Assembly: GCF_026802175.1 (NCBI RefSeq)
Contig: NZ_CP113797.1
Coordinates: forward strand, 4,689,026 to 4,753,025
Length of the DNA: 64,000 nt
Direction of reading: 5' to 3'
Source: Thermocoleostomius sinensis A174
GTDB lineage: Bacteria; Cyanobacteriota; Cyanobacteriia; Elainellales; Elainellaceae
Shown: positions 5,266-47,656 of the stretch, piece after piece
How positions within the stretch are numbered: position 1 is the stretch's first letter
Layout of the letters: each line of letters begins with the position of its first letter
Made by a program: the position numbers and the translations under genes
The notes under the pieces: generated by a model
Database searches by the model: none
The model's input: only the letters and a program-made list of their open reading frames with translations
What the model was told of the DNA's origin: nothing

Positions 5266-5381
5266 CTCACAAGTTGTGACAACAAGTCCAAGCATGGTGG
5301 TCAAGTGTTAGAACCAGCAAGTAAGCTATGAACAAGGAATCGCACCTTTAATCGAACTAGATAAACACAAATGCAATTGAT

Positions 5382-5723
5382 ATGAGTCAGCAAGGAAATT
5401 TTGTGGGTGGTTTTTTGCTAGGAACCGTAGTTGGCGGCATCGTCGGCGGTATTACTGGAGTCGTTGTGGCGTCACGTTTATCGCAACCTGGAGCAGCTAA
5501 TGAAGAAGGAACGGTGACTAAAATTGACAACAAAAGCGAAGGAAAGGTGACTAAAAAACGCCAACTTCGAGCCGCTACCGAGCAAAACATGGAAGTGGCC
5601 CGGCGTGGACTCGAAGATAAAATTGCTCAATTGAATGAAGCGATCGATGATGTGCGCCAACAGTTGGGAGCCGTCAACGGTAATGGTGACAGCGGAGAGC
5701 AATCAGTCCCTCGAAAAGGATGA
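5382..5723 (+). CDS. Small membrane-anchored YtxH-like protein
   Basis: A 113-residue protein with an N-terminal glycine-zipper membrane segment (residues ~5-32, including GTVVGGIVGGITGVVVASRL). It is followed by a charged, probably coiled-coil tail with TEQNMEVARRGLEDKIAQLN. This pattern matches YtxH/gas-vesicle-like small proteins conserved in cyanobacteria, some of which respond to stress. No enzyme motif is present. Its function is unknown. It lies 117 bases after upp on the same strand, too loosely to claim an operon. Confidence 0.65.
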   Translation: MSQQGNFVGGFLLGTVVGGIVGGITGVVVASRLSQPGAANEEGTVTKIDNKSEGKVTKKRQLRAATEQNMEVARRGLEDKIAQLNEAIDDVRQQLGAVNGNGDSGEQSVPRKG

Positions 5724-5835
5724 GCAAGGGGCAGAGAAAATGGGTGGGGAAACGATCGAGAATAGGTAATTAAATTCTGCCATCCCCCACTCCCGATTCC
5801 CTTACCGGCTTCCAACCTCCCATGCCTGATTCTCT

Positions 5836-6996
5836 TCAGTGAGGGTGACCATGGGAGTGATCATGCGCATGATGGTGATGGTGATGGTGATGCTGTGCTT
5901 GTGCGATCGCCAATGCCGGATTCACTGAAAGCGCTTGCTCAGACAACAGGGCCGCAATCTGATCATCTGCCCAATCTGCTGCCATCTGCAAGAACTTGGG
6001 ATTATCGTTGACACAAGGCATTTGTACATAGGTGACATCAGGACGCTTGCGCCGCAGTCCATGAATAATGTGATCTACGTCTAGTAAGGTTTCGTGGTTT
6101 TCAGTAGCAAACCCGATCGGCATAAACACTAGCGCCTTTGCACCTAAGTCCATCAGGTTTTTGGCAGCTAGTTCGGCGTTGGGCTGAGTCCACTCAATTA
6201 ACGGTGTTTGGTGATTCAACCAGCCCACAGAAATCAGAGGATAGCGATAGATCAGCTTTTCGCGTACCGATTCATACAAGGCTTGGCTTTCATCGATACC
6301 AGAAGTAAAGCCCTTGGCTTTGTGCGGACAGCCATGATTCATCAATACGATGCCAATCTGGGACGGAAGATAGGCTTCAGCTAAGTCCTGTGCAACCTTC
6401 TCCTCTACCATTTGGGCCATTAAATCAATATAGGCAGGCTGATTGTAGAACGAAGGAATGTAACGAATCCCTTTCACCCAATGCGCATTGGCATCCGTCA
6501 AGTTAGCAAGGGCTTTGTTGACTTGCTCTACAGCAATGCCACTGGTGAAGATTGAATCAACCACCAACAGCGGGTAAATTAAAAGCTTGTCAAATCCTTG
6601 AGATTTAATGTCGGTTAAAACTTGTTCAGGAAGGAAAGGGGCACAGAAGTTAAAGGCTTTAAACACCTGTACCCGATCGCCCCATTTTTCCCGTAAGCGG
6701 GTTTCAATTCCTGCTCGCTGCTGCTCGAAGATGGCGTTGTGAGGCGAAATAAAGTGATCATGTTGATGTTGCCACTCGTGCAAATCAAAGATGGCCAGCA
6801 GTTTAGCCAATGGTGGATAAATCCAAGTTGGCACGGGAGCAAATTTGGCTGTCAGTAGGTTTAAGGCTTGCTCGTTGTAGTTAGCAAAGTCTTCGTAGCT
6901 CTCAACTTCGCCATAGCCCATCAGCAGAACGGCAACCCGATCGGCCGATTCAGCATCTGCCATAGACTGTTGCGATTTTTCAGGAGTAGCGACCAC
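5836..6996 (-). CDS. Ferrochelatase-like protein with poly-His tail
   Basis: A 386-residue chelatase-fold protein related to ferrochelatase (HemH). It has AVLLMGYGEVESYEDFANY near the N-terminus, IGIVLMNHGCPHKAKGF in the middle and MPIGFATENHETLLD near the C-terminus, like the ferrochelatase GFxxDxxETL-type region. It lacks the chlorophyll-binding C-terminal CAB domain of the usual cyanobacterial HemH. It ends in eight consecutive His followed by HDHSHGHPH, probably a metal-holding tail. It may be a second, divergent chelatase rather than the housekeeping enzyme. The GTG at 6996, with a GAGG upstream, is preferred over an internal ATG at 6963. Confidence 0.7.
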   Translation of the reverse strand: MVATPEKSQQSMADAESADRVAVLLMGYGEVESYEDFANYNEQALNLLTAKFAPVPTWIYPPLAKLLAIFDLHEWQHQHDHFISPHNAIFEQQRAGIETRLREKWGDRVQVFKAFNFCAPFLPEQVLTDIKSQGFDKLLIYPLLVVDSIFTSGIAVEQVNKALANLTDANAHWVKGIRYIPSFYNQPAYIDLMAQMVEEKVAQDLAEAYLPSQIGIVLMNHGCPHKAKGFTSGIDESQALYESVREKLIYRYPLISVGWLNHQTPLIEWTQPNAELAAKNLMDLGAKALVFMPIGFATENHETLLDVDHIIHGLRRKRPDVTYVQMPCVNDNPKFLQMAADWADDQIAALLSEQALSVNPALAIAQAQHHHHHHHHAHDHSHGHPH

Positions 6997-7129
6997 GCTT
7001 GCACCTCAGCTTCTGCAAATACAAATGAGTAATTTGGTTGAACACTGCCCTGTGAAACTCGTCAGAAGGCCACGGCAATGTACGATGGACGAAGCGGATC
7101 GATCGCTTTGCCCATTCCTTTAGGGTAAC

Positions 7130-7146
7130 ATCCCCCATGGGGGGAT
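7130..7146. promoter_or_regulatory. Inverted repeat between divergent genes
   Basis: ATCCCCC (7130-7136), three bases, then GGGGGAT (7140-7146) form a perfect 7-bp inverted repeat. It lies in the 270-base region between the ferrochelatase-like gene (minus) and the small membrane protein gene (plus). TAGTAT at 7147-7152 directly after it could serve as a -10 element. It could be an operator or a transcript hairpin; no regulator is assigned. Confidence 0.35.
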
Positions 7147-7269
7147 AGTATAAACGAAAATTGAAATCTCCTATTCGATGGATTTTTCCCGTCGTGATCA
7201 GGTGATAAAGGTAGCGATTGAAAACCGGGAACTAGTGATTGGCACTATAAACCTGACAGTTTTTGAAAT

Positions 7270-7695
7270 ATGGCAAGAGGTCTCGTTTGGCTACCCCTGC
7301 TGGTTCTGTTCATTTGGCTCACGTGGGCAGGTTGGAATGAATATCAGAAGTTAGAAGCCTACAACGCTTGGGCCAAGCAGTTCGATCGCGCTAAATACGA
7401 TATCTATTCGGTATTGGGACAGAAGGGTGACAAGTTAACCTGGGGCAAACCCACGCGCAAAGGACCGATTGAGCTACAAACCGTTTCGCTGCAACAGGTA
7501 AAGGATATTCAACTTCTAGTCAATGATCAAAAAACTGACCTAGAGAATCTACCGCCCAAAAGTCAAGCGGTTGCGATCGAGTTGCAGTTGCAGGATATAG
7601 ACCCAGTGCGTATTCCGTTTACCGAGGTTGAGCTAGCTGCTAAGTGGACAACAGTTCTGCGGCAAGATTGGCAGTCATTACAGGCTCAAGGGTAG
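7270..7695 (+). CDS. Conserved cyanobacterial membrane-anchored protein
   Basis: A 141-residue protein with one N-terminal membrane helix (residues ~4-24, GLVWLPLLVLFIWLTWAGWN). The soluble remainder is rich in charged and Gln residues, e.g. GDKLTWGKPTRKGPIELQT. The overall pattern resembles conserved cyanobacterial hypothetical proteins; no catalytic motif is seen. The ATG at 7270 places the hydrophobic segment right at the N-terminus, as expected for a signal anchor. Topology is probably N-in with the body outside the cytoplasm. Function unknown. Confidence 0.7.
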   Translation: MARGLVWLPLLVLFIWLTWAGWNEYQKLEAYNAWAKQFDRAKYDIYSVLGQKGDKLTWGKPTRKGPIELQTVSLQQVKDIQLLVNDQKTDLENLPPKSQAVAIELQLQDIDPVRIPFTEVELAAKWTTVLRQDWQSLQAQG

Positions 7696-7884
7696 AGAAA
7701 ACTGATTACATCGTTGAAATGTTCAAAACCACCGCCGCACAGCCAGCAGGATTAACGACGCGATCGTGGAGTTGGCACGATATTGCTACCTATCCCACAT
7801 TAATTTAATGCACTACCTAAAAATTCTGATAAGGTTATGTGTCTCCAGATTTGTACCAATTACTGCCCGACTTTGCTGTAGTGC

Positions 7885-9612
7885 ATGATTAAATCTCAAC
7901 ACCTCTATCAACGGCTTTTAGATCTTGATCAGTGCAGTTACAAAGCTTACAAGGACATTCAGGGTTGCTACAGCTTTGCTAATTTCACCTTGGTCATTGA
8001 TCATGTGCAAAGCGATCCGTTTGCAACTCCCAGTCGGTTACGAGCATTGGTTCCACAACTGAAAGCGCAGTTTCCCAAGTTACTCTATGCGACCCACAGT
8101 CGAGAAATTGCCCTGCGCGATTATCTCAATCGCCAGTTCGATCGCATTGCCAGTCGCCTTTCCGACAAACGGGGTAGTGGCAAAAGCGGGTTAATTGCGA
8201 TCGCTCGCCCCGGTCAGCAAGTTTTGGAACGCACTGCGATTTTTGTCGATGATCAACAAATAGAAGCACGGTTTGTAGTAGGGTTGCCCGCTCGTGGCCG
8301 CACCATTTTAGGACGCCAAGCTGCCGAATTGTTGTGTGAAGATTTGCCAGAGATTGTGTCTCGGTCGCTCTTCTATGCGGCTTTGGATGCCAGTACAGTT
8401 CAGCAGCATGTAGAAGTAGTGGAAGACGCTGAGTGGCTACGGTCACAACTGCGCGCTCGAGGATTGGTGGCGTTTGTGCCCGATGGCGCGATATTGCCAC
8501 GCCGCAGTGGAGTGGACGATCGCCCCTTATCCAGCCAAGCATCAAGCCAAGAACAGGCGATCGCATTTCGATCGCCTCCATCACTGCGGGTTGAGTTCGC
8601 TCGCCCCAATCAGGGTAACATCACAGGCATGGGGGTTCCTCAAGGCATTACTTTGGTCGTAGGCGGTGGTTATCACGGCAAATCAACCCTGCTTAGGGCG
8701 ATCGCACTGGGCATCTACAACCACATTCCAGGGGATGGGCGCGAACAGGTCGTGACCGATCCGGCGGCTGTCAAAATTCGGGCAGAGGATGGGCGTAGCA
8801 TTACAAAAGTCAACCTTTCGCCGTTCATCAATCACTTGCCCCAGGGACGATCGACCACTCAGTTTTCGACCGAAAATGCCAGCGGCAGTACCTCTCAAGC
8901 AGCCACCATCATAGAAGCATTGGAAGCTGGAGCAACGGTGTTGCTAGTAGACGAGGATACATCAGCCACCAACTTTATGATTCGCGATCGGCGAATGCAA
9001 GCCTTGATTGCTAAACATCAAGAGCCAATTACACCGTTTATCGACAAAATTCGCCAGCTATATCAAGAGTATGGCGTGTCTACAGTGCTGGTGATGGGGG
9101 GCAGCGGTGATTACTTTGACGTAGCCGACACAGTCATCGCCATGACTGAGTTTTCTCCGCAAGATGTCACAGAACAAGCCAAAACCATTGCTCACACCTA
9201 CACCACCGATCGTGCTTCGGAAGGTGGCGATCGGTTTGGAGCAATCTGTAATCGGGTACTAGTGCCTAAACGGCTAGATTCTCCCCGTTCAAGCGATGGC
9301 CGTAATCCAAAGCTCAAAGTTCGAGATGGAGATGACCTGGTATTTGGCACAGAGTCTATTGATGTCACCGCTGTTGAACAACTCGTCGATGTCGGACAAC
9401 TTCGATCGATCGGAGCGGCGATTCACTATTTGCAAGCACATTATGTGAACGGTCGTCGATCGCTGTCAGACAGCATTGCTGCGGTAATGGCAGACGTGAA
9501 TGCAGATGGGTTGGACTGCTTAACCCCCTACCCACAAGGCGATCTGGTCGCGTTTCGATCGCTGGAATTAGCCGCCGTCATCAACCGCCTGCGATCGCTA
9601 GAAGTACGTTAA
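7885..9612 (+). CDS. ABC-class P-loop ATPase (COG3044/MRB1590 family)
   Basis: A 575-residue soluble protein matching the predicted ATPases of the ABC class. It has a long N-terminal region (RLLDLDQCSYKAYKDIQGCY), a Walker A loop VVGGGYHGKSTLLRAIALGI, an ABC-signature-like FSTENASGSTSQA and a Walker B VLLVDEDTSATNFMIRD. A later GGSGDYFDVADTVIAM segment is also characteristic. A homologue is MRB1590, a trypanosome mitochondrial RNA-editing factor. No membrane segments are present, so it is not a transporter. Its cellular role in bacteria is unsettled; nucleic-acid handling is inferred only from the eukaryotic relative. Confidence 0.85.
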   Translation: MIKSQHLYQRLLDLDQCSYKAYKDIQGCYSFANFTLVIDHVQSDPFATPSRLRALVPQLKAQFPKLLYATHSREIALRDYLNRQFDRIASRLSDKRGSGKSGLIAIARPGQQVLERTAIFVDDQQIEARFVVGLPARGRTILGRQAAELLCEDLPEIVSRSLFYAALDASTVQQHVEVVEDAEWLRSQLRARGLVAFVPDGAILPRRSGVDDRPLSSQASSQEQAIAFRSPPSLRVEFARPNQGNITGMGVPQGITLVVGGGYHGKSTLLRAIALGIYNHIPGDGREQVVTDPAAVKIRAEDGRSITKVNLSPFINHLPQGRSTTQFSTENASGSTSQAATIIEALEAGATVLLVDEDTSATNFMIRDRRMQALIAKHQEPITPFIDKIRQLYQEYGVSTVLVMGGSGDYFDVADTVIAMTEFSPQDVTEQAKTIAHTYTTDRASEGGDRFGAICNRVLVPKRLDSPRSSDGRNPKLKVRDGDDLVFGTESIDVTAVEQLVDVGQLRSIGAAIHYLQAHYVNGRRSLSDSIAAVMADVNADGLDCLTPYPQGDLVAFRSLELAAVINRLRSLEVR

Positions 9613-9827
9613 CACTGTTCTTATTGGGTTGCTCATTCTTTGACCAATTAGGTATTGTCAGACATAACGATATCCTTTTTGAAGGCTTTAATTAAATCGT
9701 GATTCGAGTCATACAATCTTTAGAATTTGATTAGGAGTAGAAGTGCGATAGTGATTCACTCGCTTGTGCTCCTCTTTATTCAGAAGATTAATCCAATAAT
9801 TTGAGAAAATTGTGAGGAGCCACGTCA

Positions 9828-10130
9828 ATGCATTTAATTCTTTACAGCAAACCTGGTTGTCATCTGTGCGAAGGGCTTCAGGAAAAACTGGAGCAAATTC
9901 AAGTCCCTACGATCGAACTAGAGATTCGCGATATTACCAGTCGCGATGATTGGTTTCAAGCCTATCAATACGAAATACCCGTGCTGATCTGGCAGCGTCC
10001 GGTTGATGCAGCAGATCACAAAAAAATAGGACAAGCAGAGATGATTTCCATCCCTCGCCCGTCCCCCCGTGCATCTGTACAGCAATTGTCTCGACAATTA
10101 GTTCAGTTATACGAGCAGTATGTCGGATAG
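9828..10130 (+). CDS. Glutaredoxin/thioredoxin-fold protein (DUF836 type)
   Basis: A 100-residue protein starting MHLILYSKPGCHLCEGLQEK. The N-terminal beta strand leads straight into a CxxC redox motif (C11-H-L-C14), then a helix. The cis-Pro strand appears as YEIPVLIW near residue 48. This is the glutaredoxin-like DUF836 family, expected to act as a small cytoplasmic thiol-disulfide protein. A GAGGAG site lies nine bases before the ATG. Its partner is unknown; nothing nearby suggests one. Confidence 0.82.
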   Translation: MHLILYSKPGCHLCEGLQEKLEQIQVPTIELEIRDITSRDDWFQAYQYEIPVLIWQRPVDAADHKKIGQAEMISIPRPSPRASVQQLSRQLVQLYEQYVG

Positions 10131-10178
10131 CTGGTTCGATCGCCCGCTCCATCATCGAAACGGAATCATGAGTTTGGG

Positions 10179-10454
10179 TTAGTAGGTGCGACGACGCGCA
10201 ACAAACGTTTCCCAAATCCAAATAGCGATCATGGCACCGATAATTGCCACAATCAAGCCAGGAATACTTAAGCCAGCCGCTGTTAACTGTAGTGTGCCTG
10301 TTTGAATGATTGACAGTAGGCTGCCGCCAATGAACGCACCAATGATACCTAGTAGCATTGTGGTGAGAATGCCTCCCCCTTGGCGTCCAGGATAAATAGC
10401 CTTGGCGATCGCGCCCGCCAGCAACCCTAAAATGATCCAAGCAATAACGTTCAT
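10179..10454 (-). CDS. GlsB/YeaQ/YmgE stress-response membrane protein, copy 1
   Basis: A 91-residue integral membrane protein of the transglycosylase-associated (GlsB/YeaQ) family. It contains WIILGLLAGAIAKAIYPGRQ, the GGGILTTMLLGIIGAFIGG block and a final helix LIVAIIGAMIAIWIWE: three predicted helices. It is closely similar to the second copy at 20678. The ATG at 10454 matches that paralogue's MN(V/I)xAW start, with GGGAG eight bases away; an ATG at 10457 is also possible. The family is induced by stress in several bacteria, but its molecular role is not established. Confidence 0.85.
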   Translation of the reverse strand: MNVIAWIILGLLAGAIAKAIYPGRQGGGILTTMLLGIIGAFIGGSLLSIIQTGTLQLTAAGLSIPGLIVAIIGAMIAIWIWETFVARRRTY

Positions 10455-10614
10455 CATGGTTTCTCCCAAATAAACTCCGGGTGTAAAACAGCCCGCAGAC
10501 AAAACCTAGGCGACTGCGATAGCTAAGTTCTTGTTACTGTAGAAAATGAATGTGATTCAAAAGTGATGGACAAACGAAGAGTATTGTGACTTCCTGATTG
10601 CCTCGTCAATTCCC

Positions 10615-13371
10615 TTAGTCCGGCGGATCAAGATAGTTCACGGCGGTTGCGACCACAATCATTGGCAAAGCGGGAATCAAGCAGATTAACCATTGATTCC
10701 ACGTTAGAGGTGCCGTACTGAAGAGAATGTTCATCAGGTTCCACTGGCTAAACACAATCTGCAACGCGATCGTGCCGGCAAGACCAAGCACCATCGCTGT
10801 CATATCCTTCATGCCCTGGCCCCGGCCAACTAGCCGCGACACAATCGATCGCCCTAGCTGACTGATACTGAGCAAATACACCACTCGGGCCGCCACCAGT
10901 GCCTGAATGGCCATCGTGCGAGCAAGCGCCAGATCCCCGGTAGTCTGACGAATCCATTCAAACATACCAAAAATCAAGACCCAGTTAAAGGCAGAGACCG
11001 CCAGAATGCGCTGTAGTAGCTTACCCGATAGCAACGGTTCATTGGGGTGGCGGGGTGGCCGTTGCATGACTCGGCTAGATTTGGGCTCAAACGCCAGCGG
11101 CACTGTCATGGTGACGGAGTTCACCATATTTAGCCACAGTACTTGCAGTGACAGAATGGGTAGGTCTCTAGCTAACAGAGCGCTGATTAAAATCGTCATC
11201 GATTCGCCCCCATTCACAGGCAAAATAAAGGCGATCGCTTTCCGCAAGTTGCGATAAACGGTTCGCCCCTCTTCCACCGCTGCCTCAATTGAGGCAAAGT
11301 TATCATTCGTGAGCAGCATATCTGCGGCTTCTTTTGCCACATCTGTACCAGCCCCACCCATCGCGACACCAATGTCGGCTTGTTTCAATGCTGGAGCATC
11401 GTTGACACCGTCCCCGGTCATAGCCACAATTTCGCCCTTCGACTGCAACGCCTCAACCAAGCGCAATTTTTGAGCAGGGGCGACTCTGGCAAATACCACT
11501 CCATCTTCGATCGCTTGGGCTAAGTTACGATCGTCCATCTGCGCTAGATCCTGTCCTGAAAAGGCCAGGACTTGTCCCTGTTTCTCTAACCCCATACGTT
11601 CAGCAATAGCGCGGGCTGTGGAAACATGATCGCCCGTGATCATTTTCACCTGAATTCCCGCCGACCGGCAGGCTTTTACTGCCGCGATCGCTTCTGCCCG
11701 GGGTGGATCAATCATGCCCTGTAGCCCCAAAAAAATCAGCCCATCCGCAATATCTTCATGTTGCAACGACGGCTTTCGAGAGAATTCACTGGCTGTAACG
11801 GGTTTCTTGGCAAAGGCGAGAACCCGCAAGCCTTGATTTGCCATAGCTTCCACCTCAGCCTCTATCCGCGCTTGCTGCATTGGAACTGGCGTGCCTTGAT
11901 TGTCTAACATCTGCTGACAGCGTTGCAGAATGGACTCCACTGAGCCTTTAACATAAATCACTTGGGCAGTAGACGCTCGATCGGAACCTGAGCGCATTAG
12001 TTCGTGTAGAGTGGCCATATATTGAAACTCCGACTCGAAGGGAATCGAGTCAAGTCGGGGCTGAGATTGGGATACAGAAACCGGATCAAGTCCAGCTTTC
12101 CGCGCTGCGGTAATTAACGCTCCCTCCGTTGGATCGCCCACCACTGTCCAGCGCCCATCGGTGGTTTCCAAGTGGGAATCATTACAAAGCAGCCCCGCAA
12201 TTAGGCATTCCTCTAGCACGGGGGCATGAGCCAGATCAATCGGCTGCTGATCGACCCGAATCTCGCCGTCAGGACTATAGCCTTCTCCACTGACTGTGTA
12301 CACCCGATCGCCAGCATAGATGGCTTGCACCGTCATCTGGTTTTCTGTCAACGTGCCAGTTTTATCGGAACAAATTACAGTCGCGCTACCCAACGTTTCC
12401 ACCGCCGGCAATTTGCGCACAATAGCGTGACGCCGAGCCATACGATTGACCCCGATCGCCAAGGTGACTGTCACCACCGCCGGCAACCCTTCTGGAATGG
12501 CGCTCACAGCCAACGCAACGGCCGCTTCAAACATGCCTGCCAAGGATTGTCCCTGACTAACCCCCACCGCAAAGGTAACAGTAGCTAAAGCCAAAATGAC
12601 ATACAGCAATGTGCGGCTAAATTTATCGAACTTGCGGGTCAACGGTGTACTGAGGTTGGTGCGCTGTTCGATCGATTGGGAAATTTGCCCGACTTCCGTA
12701 GCACTGCCAGTTGCCACCACCAATCCACTACCTTGTCCAAAGGTGACAAAGCTGCCCGCGTAGGCCATATTGACACGCTCTGCCAATGGTGTTCCTTCGG
12801 GTACGGGACGATCTTGCTTTTCAACAGGTACCGACTCCCCGGTTAAGGCCGATTCATCTACTTGTAAGTTGCGCACGCTAACCAATCGTAAATCGGCTGG
12901 AACTTTATCGCCGGATGTCAACAGCACCAGATCACCAGGAACCAATTCGCGAGATGGTAGCCGCAGTTTTTGTCCATCGCGTACTACCGTTGTTTCAGTA
13001 GAAACCGCTTTAGCCAACGCTGCGATTGCTCCCTCTGCCTTCGATTCCTGAATAAAGCCAATGATGGCATTGATCACCGTGACGCCCCAGATCACGATCG
13101 CGTTAGTCCAAGAGCCTAAGAAGGCCTTAATGGCTCCAGCAATAAGCAAAATATAAAGGAGCGGCTGATTAAATTGCAGCAGAAACCGCAACCATGCTGG
13201 CTTTCCTGGTTTTGATGCCAATTCATTGAAGCCAAATTGGTCAAGTCGCTGAGCGGCTTCGGCAGCCGTTAAGCCTTGATCAGGATGACTGTTAATAGCC
13301 TGGACAACCTCTGAAACGGAGCATTCATAATAGGAACGCAAAGATTGAGAGGATTTGACCGGAACGCCCAT
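10615..13371 (-). CDS. P-type cation-transporting ATPase, type II
   Basis: A 918-residue P-type pump with an N-terminal cation-ATPase domain and about ten helices. Catalytic motifs are TGES (177-180), the phosphorylated D336 in CSDKTGTLTENQMTV, the hinge MTGDGVNDAPALKQADIGVA, and M4 PEGLPA (293-298) as in Ca2+-ATPases. M6 reads LWLNMVNSVTMTVPLAFEP. The Asp of the SERCA-type NLVTDG site is missing, so the transported ion is uncertain (Ca2+, Na+ or another cation). It sits beside a Na+/H+ antiporter and other stress genes on the same strand. Its leader contains a hairpin. Confidence 0.88.
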   Translation of the reverse strand: MGVPVKSSQSLRSYYECSVSEVVQAINSHPDQGLTAAEAAQRLDQFGFNELASKPGKPAWLRFLLQFNQPLLYILLIAGAIKAFLGSWTNAIVIWGVTVINAIIGFIQESKAEGAIAALAKAVSTETTVVRDGQKLRLPSRELVPGDLVLLTSGDKVPADLRLVSVRNLQVDESALTGESVPVEKQDRPVPEGTPLAERVNMAYAGSFVTFGQGSGLVVATGSATEVGQISQSIEQRTNLSTPLTRKFDKFSRTLLYVILALATVTFAVGVSQGQSLAGMFEAAVALAVSAIPEGLPAVVTVTLAIGVNRMARRHAIVRKLPAVETLGSATVICSDKTGTLTENQMTVQAIYAGDRVYTVSGEGYSPDGEIRVDQQPIDLAHAPVLEECLIAGLLCNDSHLETTDGRWTVVGDPTEGALITAARKAGLDPVSVSQSQPRLDSIPFESEFQYMATLHELMRSGSDRASTAQVIYVKGSVESILQRCQQMLDNQGTPVPMQQARIEAEVEAMANQGLRVLAFAKKPVTASEFSRKPSLQHEDIADGLIFLGLQGMIDPPRAEAIAAVKACRSAGIQVKMITGDHVSTARAIAERMGLEKQGQVLAFSGQDLAQMDDRNLAQAIEDGVVFARVAPAQKLRLVEALQSKGEIVAMTGDGVNDAPALKQADIGVAMGGAGTDVAKEAADMLLTNDNFASIEAAVEEGRTVYRNLRKAIAFILPVNGGESMTILISALLARDLPILSLQVLWLNMVNSVTMTVPLAFEPKSSRVMQRPPRHPNEPLLSGKLLQRILAVSAFNWVLIFGMFEWIRQTTGDLALARTMAIQALVAARVVYLLSISQLGRSIVSRLVGRGQGMKDMTAMVLGLAGTIALQIVFSQWNLMNILFSTAPLTWNQWLICLIPALPMIVVATAVNYLDPPD

Positions 13372-45162: not shown

Positions 45163-45334
45163 TTGAGTTGAAGGGTTGCGTTTGCATTTAGGCTCGCCAA
45201 TTAACGGATGGATGAAGTGTCCTGAAGAACTTGTCAAACTAAAGAAAGAAGGAACAATGGCACTAGACTCACAAAAATCAAGGTTAGGTTAGACACGTCT
45301 TTTCTTGGTTAACTGTTTTCAGCTTACCGTTTGA

Positions 45335-45369
45335 TTCACATTGATTCCACGTTAATTTCACATTGATTC
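45335..45369 (+). promoter_or_regulatory. Two 13-bp direct repeats upstream of the protease-nuclease gene
   Basis: TTCACATTGATTC occurs exactly at 45335-45347 and 45357-45369. Start-to-start distance is 22 bases, about two helical turns, and the second copy ends 58 bases before the ATG at 45428. A regulator binding one DNA face is a natural reading. The arrangement could also be a chance duplication in A/T-rich DNA. Confidence 0.5.
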
Positions 45370-45427
45370 GTGTTTGTGTCCATGTTGCAACCAACCTTGA
45401 TTCGTTTCCGGCAGCGAAACACTTTCT

Positions 45428-47656
45428 ATGAAAATCGACATGCAGTTGCGCGAAACCATCGCAGAAACGGAAGCTCGCTATGCCAAACGCCAAACCGATC
45501 GCCTGCAACACCAACGAAAACTCAATGCTGGAGAGTTCCTACAGGCTGACGACCCAGAACGAGTGAAGAAACGTTTGCAACGGCTGGGTGTAGAGCGATC
45601 GGCAGCAGCACGATTGGTAGAAGGATTGTCGGTTCCTTTACCGCCTACAGAGATGCCACTGTCTTTAGAACGCATCTTCTTTAAGAATGATTTGATGCGC
45701 ATCAACTATCTAGAGCGAGGAACACGGGCGGCACGAGCCGTTGGGCGGATTTGGATTCAATCTAGTCAGGGACAACTGATAGGATATGCCACAGGGTTCA
45801 TGGTGTCGCCTCAACTATTACTGACGAATCATCATGTGTTGCCTACCCGTGAGTCTGCCTATGGACAGGTCGAATTTAATTATCAAGATGGAATTGACGG
45901 ACAACCGCTGCAATCTGTAAGGCTTAAGCTCAATCCGGATGCATTTTTTCTGGCAGACAAGTCACTCGATTATGCACTGGTTGCCGTTCAAACCGAACCT
46001 CATTGTCCTAGCTTGAAACAGTTTGGCTGGCATCGCTTAATTGAAGACGAAGGTAAGGTCATCATTGGCGAATATGTCAGCATTATTCAGCATCCAGGGG
46101 GCGAACCCAAACAGGTGGCGTTGCGTGAAAATCAATTGGTAGATGTCCTGCCAGAGTTTCTACACTATCAAACAGATACGGCGGTCGGTTCGTCTGGCTC
46201 TCCGGTGTTTAACGATCAGTGGGAAGTTGTGGCTGTCCATCATTCTGGTGTTCCCAAACGCGATCGCCAAGGGCGAATTCTGACAATCAACGGAGACGTT
46301 TGGACGGATGAGCAGGGCGAACAGAAAATTGCTTGGTTAGCAAATGAAGGTACGCGCGTTCGTTGCATTATTCAACATATTAAGCAACAGCGGTTATCAA
46401 GGTTTGCCAAACCATTGCGCGATCAATTGTTTGAAGCCATGCCAGACAGTAGACATTTTGACTCCGATTCTGATTCAGAATCTAATTCTAATTTAATATC
46501 AAAATTAAAATCTGATTTACTCTCTTATTCTATTCCTAACTCTATGTCTATATCTCGATCGATCGATCCAGATGATACTGATTCAGCGAGCGGTTCGGAT
46601 AGATCTACTCCAATGGTATCCAGTGATGGTACTGTTACTTGGACTATTCCCATTCAAGTCAGTATTCGTTTGGGTCAACCCACAATGCAGCTTTCGGGCG
46701 AAACTCCCCTCCCTACTCCATCTACTAGTTTCACTTCTGATATCCAATCTAATCCATCTGTTCATTCATCAGAGACACAATCAGATGAATTAGAAGCCGC
46801 ATTGGCTGAGTTTCAGGAAGCAACCCAGCGCACCTATTATGATGAAGCCCAAGATGCACAGCATTGCGATCGCTATTATGGTCGGCTGCTGCGCCAAATT
46901 GAATCCCTGGAACCGGACGAACTGTACCGAAAGCTCAGCGATCGGCTACGACAAACTCATACCACGTCCCTGGTCTATAAACCCAATAAACAGTTATATC
47001 CCTGGGTGGATTTGCACCCAGACCTGAAACTTCGCAGCATCTATTCTGGGCAGCCGTTTGAACCCGAAGCATTCATTCGAGAAGATTTTCGCATCGACCA
47101 ACTGCGATCGTTACGTACCCAAGAGCTTCAACGGAAGGAATCCACCCTATCCCCCGAGCAGTACCAGCAAGCCCTGGAATTGCTGGAAGCCAGCCTACCT
47201 TACAATTGCGAACATGTGGTGCCACAATCATGGTTTGGCAAAGCCGAGCCAATGCGGGGCGATCTGCATCATTTGTTTGCCTGTGAGGTGACGTGTAACA
47301 GTTTCCGCAGTAACTACCCTTACTTTGATTTTGATCAGTTTCAAGAAAGAGACAGCATCCGAGCCGAATGTGGCAAGCTTTCTAGCGATCGATTTGAGCC
47401 ACGCAGAGGCAAGGGAGCCGTAGCCCGCGCTACGCTCTATTTTCTGTTGCGCTATCCCGGCAAAATTAGCAAAACTAGAAGCGAATACACTCAGGAACGG
47501 CTCGAAACGTTAATTGAATGGCACATGACCTATCCACCAAACGACTATGAAAAGCACCGCAATGCTGCCATTTTTGAGCGACAGGGAAACCGCAACCCCT
47601 TGATCGATTTTCCTGAATGGGCTGAATGCATTGATTTTAGTTTGGGGGTAGAGTGA
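45428..47656 (+). CDS. Trypsin-like protease fused to endonuclease I
   Basis: A 742-residue two-enzyme chain. After a ~90-residue N-terminal region comes a chymotrypsin-fold protease with triad H136 (LLTNHHVLP), D181 (SLDYALVAV) and S256 (VGSSGSPVF). Residues ~340-460 are a Ser/Asp-rich linker containing GTVTWTIPIQVSIRLGQ. Residues ~465-735 form an endonuclease I (EndA/NucM) domain: CEHVVPQSWF with H596, MRGDLHHLFA, and NSFRSNYPYF with N624. Nothing suggests a signal peptide, unlike secreted EndA nucleases, so it appears cytoplasmic. Proteolytic control of a toxic nuclease, perhaps in defence or stress, is inferred. Related protease-nuclease fusions occur in other bacteria. Confidence 0.88.
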   Translation: MKIDMQLRETIAETEARYAKRQTDRLQHQRKLNAGEFLQADDPERVKKRLQRLGVERSAAARLVEGLSVPLPPTEMPLSLERIFFKNDLMRINYLERGTRAARAVGRIWIQSSQGQLIGYATGFMVSPQLLLTNHHVLPTRESAYGQVEFNYQDGIDGQPLQSVRLKLNPDAFFLADKSLDYALVAVQTEPHCPSLKQFGWHRLIEDEGKVIIGEYVSIIQHPGGEPKQVALRENQLVDVLPEFLHYQTDTAVGSSGSPVFNDQWEVVAVHHSGVPKRDRQGRILTINGDVWTDEQGEQKIAWLANEGTRVRCIIQHIKQQRLSRFAKPLRDQLFEAMPDSRHFDSDSDSESNSNLISKLKSDLLSYSIPNSMSISRSIDPDDTDSASGSDRSTPMVSSDGTVTWTIPIQVSIRLGQPTMQLSGETPLPTPSTSFTSDIQSNPSVHSSETQSDELEAALAEFQEATQRTYYDEAQDAQHCDRYYGRLLRQIESLEPDELYRKLSDRLRQTHTTSLVYKPNKQLYPWVDLHPDLKLRSIYSGQPFEPEAFIREDFRIDQLRSLRTQELQRKESTLSPEQYQQALELLEASLPYNCEHVVPQSWFGKAEPMRGDLHHLFACEVTCNSFRSNYPYFDFDQFQERDSIRAECGKLSSDRFEPRRGKGAVARATLYFLLRYPGKISKTRSEYTQERLETLIEWHMTYPPNDYEKHRNAAIFERQGNRNPLIDFPEWAECIDFSLGVE

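Follow-up and report, generated by a model that had tools for sequence, protein, structure and literature searches.

Within the 64,000-nucleotide stretch of DNA analysed here (the window), positions 45428-47656 of the plus strand hold a complete gene, an uninterrupted open reading frame from ATG to stop, whose 742-aa product joins a trypsin-like protease to a nuclease of the Endonuclease I (EndA) family. The two assignments come from Pfam matches to Trypsin_2 (aa 121-270; 77.8 bits against a cut-off of 27.6, E=2e-21) and Endonuclease_1 (PF04231; aa 588-730; 116.4 bits against a cut-off of 25, E=2e-33), and they bear out the view, taken in the preliminary description, that both enzymes lie in one chain. 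A chance match or an annotation artefact was ruled out by scores so far over the cut-offs and by the conservation in 59 of 59 relatives described below. The gene occurs once in the 5.81-Mb genome and encodes its sole PF04231 protein. The chain starts with a helical N-terminal module (aa 1-80, 45428-45667), followed by a V8/HtrA-like serine protease (aa 81-320, 45668-46387), a disordered Ser/Asp-rich linker delimited by the AlphaFold model and by composition (aa 338-443, 46439-46756), and an Endonuclease I module with an N-terminal helical part of its own (aa 444-742, 46757-47653), all on the plus strand. The N-terminal module, drawn from the AlphaFold model and from homologous N-termini, has helices at aa 5-20, 22-33, 43-52 and 57-64; it gave no match in the Pfam search and is a candidate sensing or oligomerisation part. 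Pfam likewise returned no EAD match and no sensor domain within the chain, and no PF01223 (NucA) match was reported at E up to 1. On the 5' side of the gene, an AT-rich region (window 45331-45405) carries several near-repeats of TTGATTC(A/C)AC, possibly regulatory.

A full-length AlphaFold2 model built on 47 sequences (mean pLDDT 76.8, pTM 0.49) has two folded modules with a disordered linker between them. The pLDDT falls below 50 at aa 343-392 and 408-446, and the Ser/Asp-rich linker noticed earlier is thus real; Asp and Glu make up 15.5% of aa 338-466. The packing of the linker motif is unreadable in this model at such low confidence. The protease triad is formed by H136 (45833-45835), D181 (45968-45970) and S256 (46193-46195); the S256 loop has low confidence in the full-length model, a possible but uncertain sign of a zymogen-like state. 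In a structure search the protease model matched the V8/Esp, HtrA and FAM111A domains at tied Z-scores of about 15-17, the FAM111A protease domain ranking first (Z 17.0) in a tie with the V8 and HtrA families at about 16. FAM111A is dimerisation-dependent (PMC10920703). The residues T251 (46178-46180) and H271 (46238-46240) correspond to chymotrypsin positions 190 and 213, and a Thr190/His213 pair in the S1 site marks Glu/Gln-cutting proteases (PMC5508998), hence a predicted P1 preference for Glu or Gln. Fold, triad and S1 residues all resemble those of the V8-type glutamyl endopeptidases (GluV8, Esp) and of HtrA/FAM111A; unlike V8, however, the window protease is intracellular and embedded mid-chain. 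V8 uses its free N-terminal amino group for Glu binding. Such a group is unavailable to the window protease as it stands, since the domain sits within a longer chain.

For the nuclease, a separate model was made from an alignment without plasmid-derived rows (pLDDT 84.2, pTM 0.85). Its structural matches were Vvn and Vibrio endonuclease I (Z 13.7-14.6), and the fold that came next reached Z 3.0; the alignment with Vvn (1oup) covers 169 residues at Z 14.6. The domain shares with the Endonuclease I/EndA/NucM/Vvn family (PF04231) both the fold and the catalytic E-H...N core, here E595-H596 (47210-47215) and N624 (47297-47299). It differs from ordinary EndA in lacking an export signal, in its extra N-terminal helical part, in the attached protease and in four clade-specific cysteines, C594, C619, C623 and C648 (47207-47371), which are identical in all 59 fusions. 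Only the last of the four aligns with a Vvn cysteine, and the set is absent from the ordinary EndA proteins whose core was read. The four lie around the His-Me core and are a candidate metal site, possibly for zinc, in a cytoplasmic EndA. A low-confidence stretch directly after the catalytic Asn (model residues 175-195, aa 624-644) lies beside the active site and is a candidate gate of the nuclease.

A scan of genome contigs retrieved 263 relatives, and the best 80 of the 263, together with further loci, yielded an alignment of 59 distinct full-length fusions. These come from Cyanobacteria, Streptomyces, Azotobacter, Methylobacter, Methylobacterium, Woeseiaceae, Planctomycetota and Chloroflexota, at least five phyla. 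H136, D181, S256, H596 and N624 are each identical in 59/59 sequences; H271 is equally invariant, while T251 is Thr in 58 and Ser in one. The residue numbers given previously for the triad and nuclease core proved exact, an inactive triad or nuclease was ruled out on sequence, and strict purifying selection on both active sites is supported. Within the class, strong matches to the nuclease clade occur in 8/390 genomes and weak ones in two more, and the distribution is rare and patchy. This patchy spread and the presence of plasmid-borne relatives fit an accessory conflict gene. In a quick tree the Cyanobium sequences lie with those of Methylobacter and Azotobacter and away from the other cyanobacteria, consistent with horizontal transfer. 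A phage origin was considered and rejected: two short nuclease peptide patterns found no match in viral contigs (IMG/VR), and phage records gave only distant nuclease or protease matches.

The fusion gene stands alone in the window among ordinary genes, between an SH3-like gene and panC-cmk, and a defence island at this place was ruled out. The panC-cmk pair and the GDSL gene that follows it are adjacent in several relatives. Just upstream of panC-cmk, no fusion homologue was present in any of 29 other genomes (six of them read to a longer distance), which identifies the fusion as a lineage-specific accessory gene here. The neighbours of the relatives are also mostly ordinary and form no defence-island pattern beyond S8 proteases, and the defence-island context suggested at the outset was not borne out. 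S8 or additional proteases adjoin the fusion in some relatives, but not in the window. No conserved sensor gene is present. A bound inhibitor had also been proposed, yet no conserved small partner gene of the inhibitor or immunity type was seen, a weak negative from a clustering of ORFs of 150 aa and longer.

The linker holds a conserved island, WTIPIQVSIRLG, in a stretch that is otherwise unalignable. We delimited the motif TVTWTIPIQVSIRLG at aa 402-416 (46631-46675, plus strand); it is conserved and strand-like, with the consensus T-x-x-W-T-x-P-L-x-V-x-V-x-L-G (core W-T-x-P-L-x-V-x-V-x-L-G). The same motif is found in most EndA fusions and also in proteins with a lipase or an NlpC/C92-like domain, in several with NucA and in some tail-less relatives; in the alpha/beta-hydrolase group it was not seen. 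Being common to different C-terminal types, it belongs to the protease chassis and not to the nuclease. The patch first singled out as a possible conserved docking or cleavage element does accompany the protease in chains that end in unrelated enzymes, and docking, assembly or processing are its candidate roles. The N-terminal module and protease are joined to NucA in Frankia, Actinocorallia and others as well as on plasmids of Aminobacter, Rhizobium and Paenibacillus, to a class-3 lipase (Lipase_3) in Cyanobium/Synechococcus, to an alpha/beta-hydrolase-like tail in Streptomyces, to S8 in Pirellulales and to an NlpC/C92-like domain in Chloroflexota. The protease tree implies that the C-terminal type changed at least 13 times, some of the 'none' labels being contig ends. 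A constant N-terminal module, protease and linker motif with varied C-terminal enzymes is what would be expected of a delivery and activation chassis. A three-domain homologue on plasmid MesoLjLa2 of Mesorhizobium sp. L-2-11 (L163:9797-12568) combines Trypsin_2, Exo_endo_phos (354-609) and Endonuclease_1 (781-914) in one chain, that is, one protease with two unrelated nucleases.

The protease partner can be exchanged as well. On plasmids of Priestia filamentosa, P. megaterium and Lysinibacillus fusiformis, the nuclease (44-46% identical) has a gene of its own that directly follows an S8 subtilisin gene, and in these three annotated Bacillota cases the two genes overlap or lie no more than about 15 bp apart. 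A plasmid of Lysinibacillus sp. MHQ-1 provides a fourth, disrupted example, again with an S8 gene upstream. The P. megaterium nuclease has Ile in place of the first cysteine. The unfused Bacillota nucleases nest inside the fusion clade; the enclosing set has an SH-aLRT of 95, to be read with caution in a quick tree with long branches. These two-gene units (L164:4689-6831, L165:4973-6744, L166:4866-6774 and L167:4899-6625) are candidates for a system of their own. S8 genes are also found around the fusions themselves, in 6/111 adjacent slots against 1/379 farther away (Fisher p 7e-4, from related genomes that are not independent); the adjacent ones belong to Streptomyces (4) and Cyanobium (2), and the farther one to Azotobacter. 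In Azotobacter chroococcum (L030:7965-13235) the EndA fusion, a Trypsin_2-BTRD1 repeat protein and an S8 subtilisin lie on one strand, and in a Chloroflexi MAG (L059:5780-10261) the EndA fusion is followed on the same strand by two more trypsin-like protease genes. The strongest argument for a coupling of proteolysis and nuclease is that one nuclease clade is associated with two protease folds unrelated to each other, and we consider it quite likely that protease and nuclease are functionally coupled.

Classical Endonuclease I is an exported enzyme, and most of the ordinary EndA proteins encountered in the window's phylum (L013, L016, L121, L122, L123 and L177) have signal or lipoprotein-like N-termini. 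The window protein has no signal peptide, as had first been reported, and no transmembrane segment. Within its first 60 aa the Kyte-Doolittle mean over 19 aa peaks at 0.69, the maximum across the set of 59 does not exceed 0.91, and a hydrophobic N-terminus is found in 0/59 fusions. Export of a Sec- or Tat-like kind was considered and is not supported by the 59 sequences. Since all 59 lack a signal that most ordinary EndA proteins of the phylum possess, the fusion protein is likely cytoplasmic, as previously supposed.

Two published groups of systems offer a comparison. System 3 of Kaur et al. 2020 combines a trypsin-like peptidase with NucA, sometimes also with an S8 subtilisin, and is predicted to act through a proteolytic cascade that deploys the nuclease (eLife 9:e52696, PMC7159879). 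The window protein resembles it in the fusion of a trypsin-like protease to an HNH/His-Me-class nuclease and in the S8 peptidases near some relatives; moreover, the trypsin-NucA fusions of Aminobacter and Rhizobium have the N-terminal module, protease and linker motif in common with it. However, its nuclease is Endonuclease I (PF04231) and not NucA (PF01223), and no EAD1 or STAND partner was seen for the EndA fusion, EAD1 being optional in System 3. As trypsin-NucA is System 3 and uses the same chassis, we regard the window fusion as an EndA version of System 3, a variant rather than a member. The second comparison is with Tuck et al. 2025, where trypsin-like and caspase proteases activate metallo-beta-lactamase (MBL) pro-nucleases in phage defence by cutting blocking loops, and where forced oligomerisation of the protease is toxic; such nuclease-protease pairs occur in Hachiman, AVAST, Lamassu, DRT and the caspase-nuclease canu (PMC12799240). 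Common to both are a trypsin-like protease with a nuclease in the cytoplasm and partner swapping between protease folds, trypsin/caspase in those pairs and trypsin/subtilisin around the EndA clade; the window protease also gives weak PADLOC matches to RT-Protease_XI and LmuA. In those pairs the MBL-fold nuclease has its own gene and a sensor is fused to the protease, whereas the window protein carries an EndA nuclease in the same chain and no attached sensor. The term 'Endonuclease I' is absent from the text of Kaur et al. (PMC7159879), and no paper on a trypsin-EndA fusion was found among the open-licence literature. The trypsin-EndA fusion is real and conserved, and represents an undescribed EndA form of a protease-nuclease conflict system that had been predicted.

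By analogy with System 3 and with the pairs of Tuck et al., the best reading of the protein is a suicide or anti-phage effector, and the main idea of the preliminary description, a nuclease of this kind released by the protease, is strengthened and plausible. Specifically, we lean slightly towards a single-gene, cytoplasmic, latent DNA-destroying effector that would be triggered through its protease. In the resting chain the nuclease would be silent or held off the DNA until a trigger turned the protease on; clustering by way of the N-terminal helical module or of the linker strand may be that trigger. The active protease would cut its own or a neighbouring chain, with Glu or Gln predicted at P1. 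The freed or unlocked nuclease would then degrade DNA, and the cell would be killed or arrested and the infection stopped. That proteolysis activates or releases the nuclease is, in our estimate, a little better than an even bet; the linker is long and flexible, and the full-length model (pTM 0.49) gives no clear picture of a sterically latent nuclease. Counting against the effector reading are also the lack of a conserved sensor gene, neighbourhoods of the relatives that resemble no defence island apart from their S8 proteases, and the absence of matches to the two short peptide patterns in viral contigs. A role in phage defence or programmed death, argued from the known systems, is an evenly balanced proposition. 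More tentatively, and with doubts that outweigh our confidence, the gene might be a one-gene suicide switch, a pro-nuclease with its own protease, which assembly via the N-terminal module, the linker strand or both would trigger and which ends in an interchangeable killer; EndA, NucA, lipase and others would be the killers in question. If true, such a switch would parallel the logic of caspase-activated DNase in a single polypeptide. The latent effector, if real, would extend protease-gated nucleases from the multi-gene MBL systems of 2025 to a single protein and another nuclease fold, in a self-contained form that spans at least five phyla. The common chassis, swappable killers and shared linker strand put activation within direct reach of experiments on a single gene and a handful of point mutants, and the trypsin-like/subtilisin swap around one nuclease clade gives a second, independent handle.

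The protein could instead carry two independent warheads, the protease hitting host or phage proteins and the nuclease hitting nucleic acid, with neither activating the other. The chemical diversity of the C-terminal enzymes (nuclease, lipase, alpha/beta hydrolase, S8 protease) and the two nuclease domains of the Mesorhizobium homologue speak for this, as does the coupling of several effectors in such systems described by Kaur et al. (PMC7159879). We nevertheless consider it unlikely: it leaves unexplained why an unfused Bacillota nuclease adjoins a protease of another fold, and how a cell lacking an inhibitor gene would tolerate a cytoplasmic nuclease that is always active.

Improbable, too, is a secreted or injected toxin or a scavenging enzyme that leaves by a leaderless route such as an extracellular contractile injection system (eCIS) and is active outside or in a target cell. 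The exported nature of classical Endonuclease I agrees with it, eCIS_core proteins are present in 19/31 fusion host taxa, and on a Streptomyces plasmid the fusion and a DUF4157 gene are about 2 kb apart. The window genome itself has an eCIS-like locus with a DUF4157 protein and a baseplate hub, at about 5.417-5.425 Mb of contig C1. In the region read there (L180, C1:5412001-5431000), positions 5376-12600 encode a hub with Phage_GPD and Phage_base_V and a 1538-aa eCIS_core protein. The fusion gene, however, is about 0.69 Mb away from it, eCIS_core occurs in 120/291 genomes of the class regardless and is absent from 12/31 fusion genomes, no eCIS gene appeared among the families listed for the immediate neighbours, and a Sec/Tat-like signal is missing from every one of the 59 sequences; a role as eCIS cargo is disfavoured. 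Housekeeping in stress or DNA-protein quality control, for example the removal of protein-DNA crosslinks by analogy with human FAM111A, whose protease domain was the first, though tied, structure match, is very improbable for a gene found in only 8/390 genomes of its class, spread horizontally across phyla and built on a protease that is elsewhere fused to lipases and other non-DNA enzymes.
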